DNA from: a bacterium
GTDB taxonomy: Bacteria; CG2-30-53-67; CG2-30-70-394
NCBI GenBank assembly: GCA_024278555.1
Contig: JAJRSX010000155.1
Coordinates: 1 to 6,232 of the forward strand
Direction of reading: 5' to 3'
Length of the DNA stretch: 6,232 nucleotides
Shown: in pieces, positions 3 through 6,170 of the stretch
Layout of the letters: the number at the start of each line of letters is the position of its first letter
Position numbering within the stretch: position 1 is the stretch's first letter
Position numbers and translations under genes: made by a program
The notes under the pieces: generated by a model
Told to the model about the DNA's origin: nothing
Seen by the model: only the letters and a program-made list of their open reading frames with translations
Database searches by the model: none

Positions 3-47
3 CAGCGCGACGCGGTCTTGCAGATCGTCTACGCGCGCCTGGGCTAG
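3..47 (+). CDS. C-terminal tail of an unidentified upstream gene (partial)
   Basis: One plus-strand frame is open from the window edge and ends at a TAG at 45-47. The tail reads QRDAVLQIVYARLG. The codons are GC-rich at third positions, as in the neighbouring genes, and the ending looks like a protein helix, so a real gene running in from the left is likely. Fourteen residues are too few to name a family. The stop codon lies inside the string CTAGGAGCCTGTCGGGC, which may be the edge of a dispersed element (see the next entry). Confidence 0.4.
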   Translation, partial: QRDAVLQIVYARLG

Positions 48-278: not shown

Positions 279-1172
279 ATGGCCTTTATTGATGGCAAGG
301 AGATCGCGGCGGGTATCAAGGAGCGGGTGGCGGCGCAGATAGCGGCGCTGCCCGACGGGGTGGTGCCGGGGTTGGCGACCCTGCTCGTCGGCGACGACTA
401 CGGCGCCGCCCAGTACCGCGGCCAGATCGAGCGGCTCACGACCAAGAGCGGCTTCCACTACGTGGACGCGCGGCTCCCCGCCACCGCCACCCTCGGCGAG
501 ATCCACGCAAAGCTCGATCGCCTCACCGCCGACCCGGCGGTCCACGGCATCCTGCCCCTGCGCCCCTTTCCCGACGGGGTGGGCGACGAGGCGGTGATCG
601 ATCGCCTGCCGCCGGAGAAGGATATCGACGGCTTCCACCCGGATAACCTCGGCCGCCTCCTCCTCGACGCCCCCCGCCTCATCCCCTCCACCGCCCGCGC
701 CTGCCTGGTGGCCCTGGACGCCGCCGGGGTCGACCTGAAGGGCAAGGAGGTGGTGGTGGTGGGGCGCTCCGCCACCGTGGGCAAGCCGGTGGGGCTCCTG
801 TGCATGGCGCGCCACGCCACCGTCACCACGCTCCACTCGCGCACCCGCGACCTCGCCCTCCACACCCGCCGCGCCGACGTGGTGATCGTCGCCATCGGCC
901 GGCCGCGCTTCCTCACCGCTGAGATGATCTCCGACGGGGCGGTGGTGATCGATGTGGGGATCAACTGGGAGGAGTACACGGACGCCGACGGCAACAAGAA
1001 GGGGCGGCTGGTGGGCGACGCCGACACCGATGGGTGCGCCGCGGTAGCTGCCGCCATCACCCCGGTCCCCGGCGGCGTCGGCGCGATCACCAACGCCTGC
1101 CTCCTGGAGAACACCCTGGCCGCCCTGCGGCTGCAGGACGGCGGTAGGCGGGGGCGCGCGGACTCGCGGTAG
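279..1172 (+). CDS. folD: FolD-family methylenetetrahydrofolate dehydrogenase, cyclohydrolase residues altered
   Basis: Canonical FolD, a cytosolic enzyme, oxidises 5,10-methylene-THF to methenyl-THF with NAD(P)+ and hydrolyses that to 10-formyl-THF. This 297-residue protein is near the usual 280-300. The N-terminal catalytic domain (about 1-120) keeps Tyr46 and the DIDGFHP motif (Asp117). The Rossmann half has GRSATVGKP at 162-170, VVIDVGIN at 222-229 and TPVPGGVG at 261-268. In the conserved Y-x3-K motif, the position of the catalytic Lys is Ile50. In the usual GILVQLPLP motif, the Gln is Leu94 (GILPLRPFP). The normal PCTPxG loop reads PSTARA (136-141), and GGVGPMT reads GGVGAIT. Family membership is secure. 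Loss of cyclohydrolase activity is inferred from the missing Lys and Gln; dehydrogenase activity may remain, as in monofunctional relatives such as yeast Mtd1. The ATG at 279 has GGAG seven bases upstream and begins the typical MAxxIDGKEIA opening. It is separated from the rib operon by a minus-strand remnant. Confidence 0.88.
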   Translation: MAFIDGKEIAAGIKERVAAQIAALPDGVVPGLATLLVGDDYGAAQYRGQIERLTTKSGFHYVDARLPATATLGEIHAKLDRLTADPAVHGILPLRPFPDGVGDEAVIDRLPPEKDIDGFHPDNLGRLLLDAPRLIPSTARACLVALDAAGVDLKGKEVVVVGRSATVGKPVGLLCMARHATVTTLHSRTRDLALHTRRADVVIVAIGRPRFLTAEMISDGAVVIDVGINWEEYTDADGNKKGRLVGDADTDGCAAVAAAITPVPGGVGAITNACLLENTLAALRLQDGGRRGRADSR

Positions 1173-2265: not shown

Positions 2266-2312
2266 GGTCGATGGCCTGGGATGATGCGTTAACCGGGTGC
2301 GGGAGCATCCTG

Positions 2313-2318
2313 AAGGAG
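2313..2318 (+). promoter_or_regulatory. Ribosome-binding site of ribBA
   Basis: AAGGAG at 2313-2318 lies five bases before the ATG at 2324. It is a near-consensus Shine-Dalgarno sequence and fixes the start of ribBA at [13 protein letters not shown] rather than at the in-frame upstream GTG at 2297. It also shows that the short first reading frame of the frameshifted ribBA is the genuine 5' end of the gene. Confidence 0.75.
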
Positions 2319-2323
2319 ATTGG

Positions 2324-3528
2324 ATGGAGCACAAGATTGCGAGTGTCGAGGCGGCGATCGAGGCGACCCGCGCCGGCAAGATGGTCATCCTGGTGGATGA
2401 CGAGGATCGGGAGAACGAGGGCGACCTGTGCATGGCCGCCGACTTCGTCACCCCGAGGCGATCAACTTCATGGCCCGCTACGGCCGTGGGCTGATCTGCC
2501 TGACCCTTACCCCGGAGCGGTGCGACCAGCTCGAGCTGCCGATGATGGCGAGCCACAACACCTCGCGCTTCGAGACCGCCTTTACCATCTCCATCGAGGC
2601 GCGCGAGGGGGTGACCACCGGGATCTCCGCCGCCGACCGGGCCACGACCGTCAGGGCGGCGGTGGCCCCCGACGCCACCGCCCGGGATCTGGTGCGACCG
2701 GGCCACATCTTTCCCCTGCGCGCCAAGCCGGGCGGGGTGCTCCAGCGTGCCGGCCAGACCGAAGGCTCGGTGGACCTGGCGCGGATGGCCGGGCTCACCC
2801 CGGCGGGGGTGATCTGCGAGATCATGAACGACGACGGCACCATGTCGCGGATGCCGCAGCTCGAGGTCTTCGCGGAGGAGCACGACATCCCGATCGTCAC
2901 CATCAAGGACATGATCGCCTACCGGATGGTGAAGGAGTCTCTGGTGCGGCGCATCGCAGCGGCCCCCATCCCCACCGAGTACGGCACCTTCATCGCTACC
3001 GTCTACGGCAACGACATCGACAACAAGGAGCACGTGGCCCTGGTGATGGGAGATGTCACCACCGACGAGCCGGTCCTCGTGCGGGTCCACTCCGAGTGCC
3101 TCACCGGCGACGTCTTCCATTCCCAGCGGTGTGACTGCGGCGACCAGCTCCACGCCGCCCTGGCGACCATCGGCCAGGAGGGGCGGGGGGTCCTTCTTTA
3201 CCTGCGCCAGGAGGGGCGGGGGATCGGCCTGTCGAACAAGATCAAGGCGTACGCCCTCCAGGACGGCGGCCTCGACACGGTGGAGGCGAACCAGGAGCTC
3301 GGCTTCAAGCCGGACCTGCGTGACTACGGTCTGGGGGCGCAGATGCTCGCCGACCTCGGCCTCACCAAGCTGCGCCTGATGACCAACAACCCGCGCAAGA
3401 TTGTCGGCCTCTCGGGCTACGGATTGGAGGTGGTGGACCGCGTCCCCCTCGATATCCCGGCCGGAGAGCACAACGAGCGCTATTTGAAGACCAAGGCCGA
3501 GAAGATGGGCCACCTGCTTGGGGAGTGA
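2324..3528 (+). CDS. ribBA: Bifunctional RibBA (DHBP synthase / GTP cyclohydrolase II), frameshifted
   Basis: RibB makes 3,4-dihydroxy-2-butanone 4-phosphate from ribulose 5-phosphate; RibA opens GTP to the diaminopyrimidine that starts riboflavin synthesis. The first frame encodes residues 1-44 with the RibB acidic loop [10 protein letters not shown] (25-34), then is lost in a CCCC run (2451-2454). Adding one base restores [16 protein letters not shown] and a 401-residue protein, normal for RibBA. Further RibB motifs are [21 protein letters not shown] and MNDDGTMSR. The metal-binding His of the usual GHTEA motif is Gln145 (AGQTEG). The RibA half (about 205-401) has zinc ligands Cys259, Cys270 and Cys272 in [15 protein letters not shown], then [29 protein letters not shown] and [10 protein letters not shown], so it looks fully functional rather than the degenerate RibBX type. 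Read literally, the gene is broken: an internal start such as ATG 2470 would give RibA plus a RibB half without its acidic loop. A sequencing or assembly error is the simplest explanation. ribH starts two bases after the stop. Confidence 0.9.
2451..2454 (+). other. Apparent -1 frameshift in a C run within ribBA
   Basis: The run A-CCCC-GAGGCG should read ACC CCC GAG GCG for the conserved T-P-E-A sequence of RibB, which needs five C rather than four. Upstream, the start frame continues into PRRSTSW and stops at about 2492-2494. Downstream, the correct frame resumes at GAG 2455-2457 without further damage through to 3528. The position is tightly fixed because conserved residues flank the run on both sides. 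Four C is too short for a typical phase-variable tract. Confidence 0.85.
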
Positions 3529-4698: not shown

Positions 4699-5430
4699 AT
4701 GGAGACCCTGCTGGAGGCACGTCGGCTGAGCTATCGCCACCCGCGGGGGGACGGTGGCGAGGTCGCCCTGGTGGGGGTGGACTTGGTGGTGGCGCCGGGG
4801 GAGGTGGTGGCGGTGGTCGGCCCCTCCGGGGGCGGCAAGACGACCCTGGTGCGGCTGCTCGCCGGCCTCACCCGCCCGGACACAGGCGAGGTCTACCTCG
4901 CCGGCCGCCCCTACGGCGAGCTCGACCTGCGGGAGGTGCGCCGCCAGGTGGGGCTCCTCTTCCAGGTGCCGCACATGTTCCCGGGGACGGTGGCGGAGAA
5001 CCTCTCCACCGCGGCGCGACTGGCCGGGGTGGATGTCGCCGGGGCGGAGGTCGCCGGCGCCCTGGCGGCGGTGGGGCTGGCCGACGTGCTCGCCCACCGC
5101 TCCGCGGATCGCCTCTCCGTGGGCCAGCAGCAGCGTGTCGCCCTCGCCCGCCTCCTGGCGATGGGGCCCCGTTGCCTGCTCCTCGACGAGCCCACCGCCG
5201 CCCTCGACCCCGCCTCCACCGGGGTGGTGGAGGCGCTCCTCGGCCGCCTGCGCGACGACCGTATGGGAATTGTCCTAGTGACCCACGAGATCCCCGTCGC
5301 CCGGCGGCTGGCGGATCGGGTGGTGGTCCTGGTCGACGGGCGGGTGGTGGAGGAGGGGAGGGCGGCGAAGGTCCTCAGCCGGCCGGCCCACCCGGCCACC
5401 CGGGCCCTCCTTGAGGAGGGGGTGGGGTGA
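4699..5430 (+). CDS. fetA: ABC transporter ATP-binding protein, FetA (YbbL) type
   Basis: This is the cytoplasmic ATPase of a two-gene ABC exporter. The 243 residues contain one complete nucleotide-binding domain: Walker A GPSGGGKTT (41-49), Q-loop Gln89 in LLFQVPHMF, signature LSVGQQQR (139-146), Walker B CLLLDEP (159-165) with catalytic Glu164, D-loop ALD (168-170) and H-loop His196. The signature has Val in place of the first Gly of LSGGQ, a tolerated change. The family call rests mainly on the next gene, a clear FetB/YbbM permease; the ATPase alone would only be a general ABC protein. In E. coli FetAB exports iron and helps survive peroxide stress; here that role is inferred. The ATG at 4699 gives the usual METLLEARRLSY opening, with a weak GGTGAT just upstream. 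It lies 28 bases after nusB and may be read through from it. Confidence 0.85.
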   Translation: METLLEARRLSYRHPRGDGGEVALVGVDLVVAPGEVVAVVGPSGGGKTTLVRLLAGLTRPDTGEVYLAGRPYGELDLREVRRQVGLLFQVPHMFPGTVAENLSTAARLAGVDVAGAEVAGALAAVGLADVLAHRSADRLSVGQQQRVALARLLAMGPRCLLLDEPTAALDPASTGVVEALLGRLRDDRMGIVLVTHEIPVARRLADRVVVLVDGRVVEEGRAAKVLSRPAHPATRALLEEGVG

Positions 5431-6170
5431 GCGCCTATCAGCTCGTCGCTGCCTACGGCCTGATCCTGCTCATGGCGGCGATCGCCCGCTGGCGGCGGGT
5501 CGGGGTGGAGGGGGACGTCTTTGTCTCTTCTATTCGCGCCGCGGTGCAGCTCGTCCTCATGGGGTACGTGATCCAGTGGATCTTCGACCTCCAGAGGATC
5601 GCCGCCCTGGTGGCGTTGTTGGCGGCGATGGTCCTGCTGGCGGCGCGCATCTCGGCGCGGCGCGGTGAGGCGATGGAGCGCGCCTACCCGGTCGCCCTGG
5701 CGGCGATCGGCCTGGCCACGGTGGTGATCGTGGGGACCCTGGTCGCCCTCGGCGTGATCGCCCCCACCGGCCGCTACCTTATCCCCCTCGGCGGCATGGT
5801 GATCGGCAACACGATGAACATCACCTCCCAGACCCTCAACCGCTTCCAGGCGGAGGTGGCGGCCAGGCGGGCGGAGGTGGAGACCCTCCTCTCCCTCGGT
5901 GCCAGCCGCCACCAGGCGGCGGAGGTGTTGCTCAGAGAGACGGTACGGGCGGCGATGATCGCGCCGCTCGACACGATGAAGGCGGTGGGGCTGATCCACA
6001 TCCCCGGGGTGACCGCCGGGATGATCCTCGCCGGCACCCCGCCGGTGGAGGCGGTCCGCTACCAGATCGTGGTGATGTACATGCTCGGCGCCGGCGTCAC
6101 CCTCTCCGCCCTCACCGCCGCCACCCTCTGCTACCTGCGCGCCTTTACCCCCGACCACCGGCTGCGGTAG
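5427..6170 (+). CDS. fetB: FetB (YbbM, UPF0014) iron exporter permease
   Basis: This is the membrane subunit of the FetAB exporter in the inner membrane. The 247 residues (E. coli FetB has about 259) contain hydrophobic segments at roughly 6-20, 36-53, 58-75, 89-111, 117-133, 186-203 and 213-236, consistent with a six- or seven-helix permease. Family hallmarks are SIRAAVQLVLMGYVIQWIF near the N-terminus, PLGGMVIGNTMN (120-131), the cytoplasmic stretch ending LSLGAS (155-160) that likely contacts the ATPase, and IPGVTAGMILAGTPP (192-206) followed by EAVRYQIVVMYML. The start is the GTG at 5427, whose bases overlap the fetA stop (GTGA), with GAGGAGGGGG (5413-5422) as a strong Shine-Dalgarno. The overlap indicates translational coupling and a stoichiometric complex with FetA. 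Iron as substrate comes from E. coli and is inferred here. Confidence 0.92.
   Translation: MSAYQLVAAYGLILLMAAIARWRRVGVEGDVFVSSIRAAVQLVLMGYVIQWIFDLQRIAALVALLAAMVLLAARISARRGEAMERAYPVALAAIGLATVVIVGTLVALGVIAPTGRYLIPLGGMVIGNTMNITSQTLNRFQAEVAARRAEVETLLSLGASRHQAAEVLLRETVRAAMIAPLDTMKAVGLIHIPGVTAGMILAGTPPVEAVRYQIVVMYMLGAGVTLSALTAATLCYLRAFTPDHRLR

Follow-up and report, generated by a model that had tools for sequence, protein, structure and literature searches.

The window analysed here, a 6,232-nucleotide stretch of a bacterial genome from CG2-30-53-67, a candidate phylum in PMC11406059, opens with the 3' end of fchA (methenyl-THF cyclohydrolase; positions 3..47, forward strand, recognised by blastn against the corresponding locus of a sister species). 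This fragment is followed on the same strand by folD (279..1172), which encodes a 297-aa methylenetetrahydrofolate dehydrogenase of the Tyr-x3-Ile/GILPLRPFP type, as assigned by domain matches and alignment. FolD is routinely annotated as a bifunctional enzyme. Both FolD domains pass the gathering score in the window protein (PF02882, 191.1 bits with a cut-off of 27; PF00763, 84.3 bits with a cut-off of 32.8), and the predicted structure (pLDDT 93.6) superimposes on most FolD entries with Z of 36-40 and rmsd of 1.1-2.1 over about 280 residues, that is, the FolD fold extends along the whole chain. The protein scores under the cut-off of every NCBIfam FolD model that it matches, and all those models are named bifunctional.

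We aligned the translation to the solved FolDs of Pseudomonas aeruginosa, Francisella and Escherichia coli. The alignment is gap-free from Tyr46 to the Lys column and across the GILPLRPFP region, so that E. coli Y-V-A-S-K corresponds to Y46-R-G-Q-I50, with the conserved Tyr of the Tyr-x3-Lys motif at 414..416 and Ile50 (ATC, 426..428) at the position of the catalytic Lys. GILVQLPLP of canonical FolD reads GILPLRPFP here, with Pro93-Leu94-Arg95-Pro96-Phe97 encoded at 555..569 and Leu94 (CTG, 558..560) falling on the column of the catalytic Gln. The pterin-binding Asp117 (627..629) is retained and aligns with the Asp of D[IV]DGFHP. The initial annotation of this gene had placed the two replacements at exactly these codons and had described canonical spacing with Tyr46 and Asp117 conserved, and both points are borne out by the alignment. 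Lys and Gln occupy the catalytic columns in all 93 canonical FolDs compared. Thus, the pair of residues that marks a bifunctional FolD, the Lys of Tyr-x3-Lys and the Gln of GILVQLPLP, is missing, and the pattern of a monofunctional FolD, in which the cyclohydrolase residues are lost and the folate-binding Tyr46 and Asp117 are kept, is present. The FolD of the sister species (genome G001), which is 82% identical, carries identical residues at the altered positions.

The genome, 3.06 Mb in 211 contigs and with an estimated completeness of 100%, encodes no other FolD: a search of the entire assembly for a second copy, canonical ones included, returned none, leaving ORF 279-1172 as the sole FolD. 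The initial annotation had argued that, in this case, the cell would need another methenyl-THF cyclohydrolase, and a stand-alone fchA indeed lies directly upstream. Most of this gene is located on another contig, C176 (L031, 3-548, minus strand), where it runs off the contig end after 182 codons; its last 14 codons are supplied by window bases 3-47, which encode QRDAVLQIVYARLG-stop, compared with REAVLQIVYGRLG-stop at the C-terminus of the intact sister FchA. In the sister genome (locus L047), fchA is intact and directly precedes folD. In blastn comparisons to this locus, the alignment of C176 stops at position 2030 and that of the window starts at 2071, with window bases 6-48 matching at 81% identity and the alignment picking up again from folD. 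It follows from these alignments that the window starts partway through the terminal codons of fchA, that roughly 40 bases between the two contigs are absent from the assembly, and that this genome, too, carries the fchA-folD pair. The only PF04961 gene in the genome is this stand-alone fchA rather than a fused FTCD (200.5 bits; cut-off 24.5). The sole family matched by its product is NCBIfam NF045657 (FchA), but the incomplete copy and the intact sister protein score 198.9 and 200.8 bits, respectively, under the cut-off of 275, so the partner is to be considered FchA-like rather than an equivalog by this model.

The genome search proposed along with the initial annotation further yielded no fhs (formate-THF ligase) in this or the sister genome, and no PurU was recognised among the PF00551 matches that we inspected. 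These matches include two PurN-like pieces, an Fmt-sized ORF (328 aa) and an embedded formyltransferase. The PurN-like pieces, at the ends of contigs C155 and C8 (L164 and L166), are similar but non-identical in sequence and represent either two copies of purN or a mixture of strains.

The association of fchA with the altered folD extends beyond this genome. A scan of the named genomes that carry the window FolD type covered 80 loci, 32 with altered and 48 with canonical FolDs; fchA is found in the flanks of all 32 altered FolDs, in contrast to none of the 48 canonical ones. It lies upstream on the same strand in 31 of the 32 altered loci; the remaining one (L127), with fchA downstream, encodes a FolD that keeps the Lys and has Glu in place of the Gln. 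One apparent exception among the altered FolDs (L149) turned out to be a misalignment, the sequence reading YVRNK, as in canonical FolD. The second sample comprised 57 genomes, most of them the only representative of their family, and FolD was considered altered if the Lys, Gln or Asp was changed; here, a stand-alone fchA accompanies 12 of 12 altered FolDs compared with 2 of 45 intact ones (G010 and G042). The Fisher p of ~1e-10 overstates independence, because the altered FolDs group together in the tree and the counts are not independent events. All nine genomes in which a long FTCD-like ORF is the only clear PF04961 match keep an intact FolD.

In phylogenetic analysis, the altered FolDs all lie to the same side of one branch, which has an SH-aLRT of 96, decreasing to 78 after removal of the motif stretches and of four long rows. 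Within this assemblage, the Ile/Val50-Leu94 type, for which the initial annotation had proposed such a tree, forms one group (YRxQ/PLRPFP; SH-aLRT 90 with the same exclusions). Position 50 is occupied by Val or Ile and position 94 by Leu in all 35 members of this clade, which indicates that Ile50 and Leu94 are due neither to chance nor to sequencing error. Seven residues, namely, Arg47 (417..419), Tyr61, Pro93, Leu94, Arg95 (561..563), Phe97 and Asn272, are invariant in the 35 FchA-paired members and rare or absent at the respective columns of the 93 canonical FolDs; column comparison shows Val or Ile at the position of Arg47 in canonical FolD and identifies Arg95 as specific to the clade. The invariance of these new residues argues for selection acting on an apparently maintained enzyme, as opposed to decay. 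Named members belong to Nitrospirota, Actinomycetota (Geothermincola, Solincola), Spirochaetota and Bacillota (Syntrophomonadaceae). When 386 genomes were surveyed for the GIxPLRPFP pattern, 7 FolD matches emerged, all in the window's own class, along with one further, chance match in a non-FolD protein; with the exact motif found in FolD only within its own class, this type is uncommon.

The clade is heterogeneous in residues that may bear on the choice of cofactor. The FolDs of the window genus have Arg163 (GRS motif; 765..767) and an S-R-T loop, as do most canonical FolDs, whereas in the rest of the clade residue 163 is His and the loop is longer. These differences tentatively suggest NADP+ as the cofactor in the window genus and, possibly, NAD+ in the rest of the clade. 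Outside the main subset, five FolDs (L066, L079, L083, L030 and L072) have the Lys replaced by Gln, Ile or Leu, and in three of these Glu also takes the place of the Asp; all five genomes encode a stand-alone fchA.

E. coli FolD has been characterised with mutations of either catalytic residue: the K54N enzyme is devoid of detectable cyclohydrolase activity and retains about 19% of the dehydrogenase activity, and Q98H retains about 1% and 8%, respectively (PMC5688156). In a model of human MTHFD2, Lys88 contacts both the pterin oxygen and Gln132 (PMC9173628). Taken together with the replaced residues, the single gene copy, the fchA neighbour, the co-occurrence across the clade and the predicted fold, all observed here, the sequence makes it highly probable that the window folD encodes a monofunctional methylene-THF dehydrogenase acting in tandem with the FchA encoded directly upstream. 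The suggestion in the initial annotation that the protein is a dehydrogenase only is thereby supported by sequence comparison.

The activities, cofactor and direction of flux that we infer are the following. FolD would use its Rossmann domain and the retained folate-binding residues, Tyr46 and Asp117, to oxidise 5,10-methylene-THF to 5,10-methenyl-THF, with NADP+ as the probable cofactor in the window genus; having neither the Lys at position 50 nor the Gln at position 94, it would be unable to open the methenyl ring, and FchA would hydrolyse methenyl-THF to 10-formyl-THF. A two-in-one enzyme would thus be replaced by a two-gene team. Because neither fhs nor a second FolD was found, the 10-formyl-THF needed for purine synthesis (PurN) and initiator tRNA (Fmt) is likely to be supplied by the FolD-FchA pair.

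Loss of the cyclohydrolase activity is the firm prediction. In human MTHFD1, a role in hydride transfer, in support of the dehydrogenase step, has been ascribed to Lys56 and Gln100 as well (PMC3368264). The window enzyme could therefore be a weak dehydrogenase unless further changes compensate, for which Arg47 and Arg95 are the most obvious candidates. It is conceivable, although we put this forward only tentatively, that the active site was rebuilt around Val/Ile50, Leu94, Arg47 and Arg95 in an uncharacterised clade present in several phyla (Nitrospirota, Actinomycetota, Spirochaetota and Bacillota as well as the window's class), producing a specialised dehydrogenase that hands methenyl-THF to the adjacent FchA, possibly within a complex, with a cofactor that differs between the window genus, which has NADP-like residues, and the other members.

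The enzyme could still be bifunctional if Lys56, Arg47 or Arg95 supplied the cyclohydrolase activity and FchA were redundant. New chemistry of this kind is conceivable inasmuch as the clade-invariant Arg47 and Arg95 adjoin the lost Lys and Gln, but the candidacy of Lys56, which the initial annotation had considered as a potential substitute, fails: the sister species has Ser at this position, and 32 of the 33 other clade members have Glu. Furthermore, the E. coli K54N enzyme has no detectable cyclohydrolase, and FchA is kept beside every altered FolD at the named loci, contrary to the expectation from redundancy; retention of both activities appears improbable. The rewritten active-site loops might instead hint at a substrate other than THF, and a different pterin or one-carbon carrier had indeed been suggested at the outset. 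This possibility, which we consider very unlikely, is neither supported nor needed: Tyr46 and Asp117 are kept, the FolD fold covers the full length, the partner belongs to the FchA family, which acts on methenyl-THF, and this sole FolD resides in a genome with PurN-like and Fmt-sized genes. PurN and Fmt need 10-formyl-THF. The disappearance of two catalytic residues would also be compatible with a decaying or inactive copy, but the ORF and its Rossmann domain are intact, there is no other copy, and the protein is conserved across several phyla with clade-specific invariant residues, making decay extremely unlikely.

The pairing of a FolD with a separate FchA has precedents. CpeFolD of Clostridium perfringens is reportedly monofunctional, without cyclohydrolase activity. 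As in the window genome, a FolD-family dehydrogenase is combined with a separate FchA, as established by Aluri et al. 2016 (pmid 26531681; cited in PMC7219735); however, C. perfringens also has Fhs, which was not found in the window genome or its sister. Similarly, fchA adjoins folD in the fhs-fchA-folD clusters of acetogens, such as C. autoethanogenum (PMC9618320; PMC10213532), in which fhs is present; none was found in the window genus. Bifunctional FolDs (E. coli, P. aeruginosa, human MTHFD1) share with the window protein the fold, length, folate-binding Tyr and Asp, and Rossmann domain but differ in having the catalytic Lys and Gln instead of Ile and Leu and in lacking the new Arg47, Pro93, Arg95 and Phe97. 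Yeast Mtd1 (PDB 1edz), a monofunctional NAD dehydrogenase of the same fold that lacks the catalytic Lys, resembles the predicted window enzyme in being dehydrogenase-only but is eukaryotic, is not known to be paired with FchA, and is more distant (23% identity; Z 30.4, compared with 36-40 for most bacterial and human FolDs).

Thus, the FolD/FchA split is already known, and the window FolD is an uncharacterised variant of this arrangement. What appears to be new is the combination of residues, the invariant replacements across the clade, the absence of detectable fhs in the genus and the strict co-occurrence; our literature search found no paper describing these features, which does not prove that none exists. 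Throughout the sampled loci, a FolD without the cyclohydrolase residues invariably predicts fchA in the genome, so that annotations and metabolic models can be corrected on the basis of two residues and a single neighbour. The clade is, moreover, a natural system in which to test what the Lys and Gln contribute to each half-reaction. Carolacton binding in E. coli FolD depends on Lys54 (PMC5688156), and FolDs of the window type may be insensitive to this compound.

The remainder of the window contains several additional features. Downstream of folD, a 98-aa VapC-like PIN ORF lies on the minus strand (1242-1538); its match to the family model is confined to the C-terminal two thirds of that model, and no antitoxin partner was seen, so this ORF is probably a remnant. 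At 1574-1610, just upstream of ribE, two perfectly matching 17-bp arms (TTGTCCCCTATTTTCGC / GCGAAAATAGGGGACAA) form an inverted repeat around a GTA spacer. In ribBA (2297-3528), a one-base frameshift near 2450-2460, which is either an assembly error or a real lesion, splits ORF 2297-2494 from ORF 2428-3528, the latter part matching bifunctional RibBA along most of its length. Beside the riboflavin-nusB genes, region 4699-6170 encodes an ABC ATPase paired with a FetB/UPF0014 permease.
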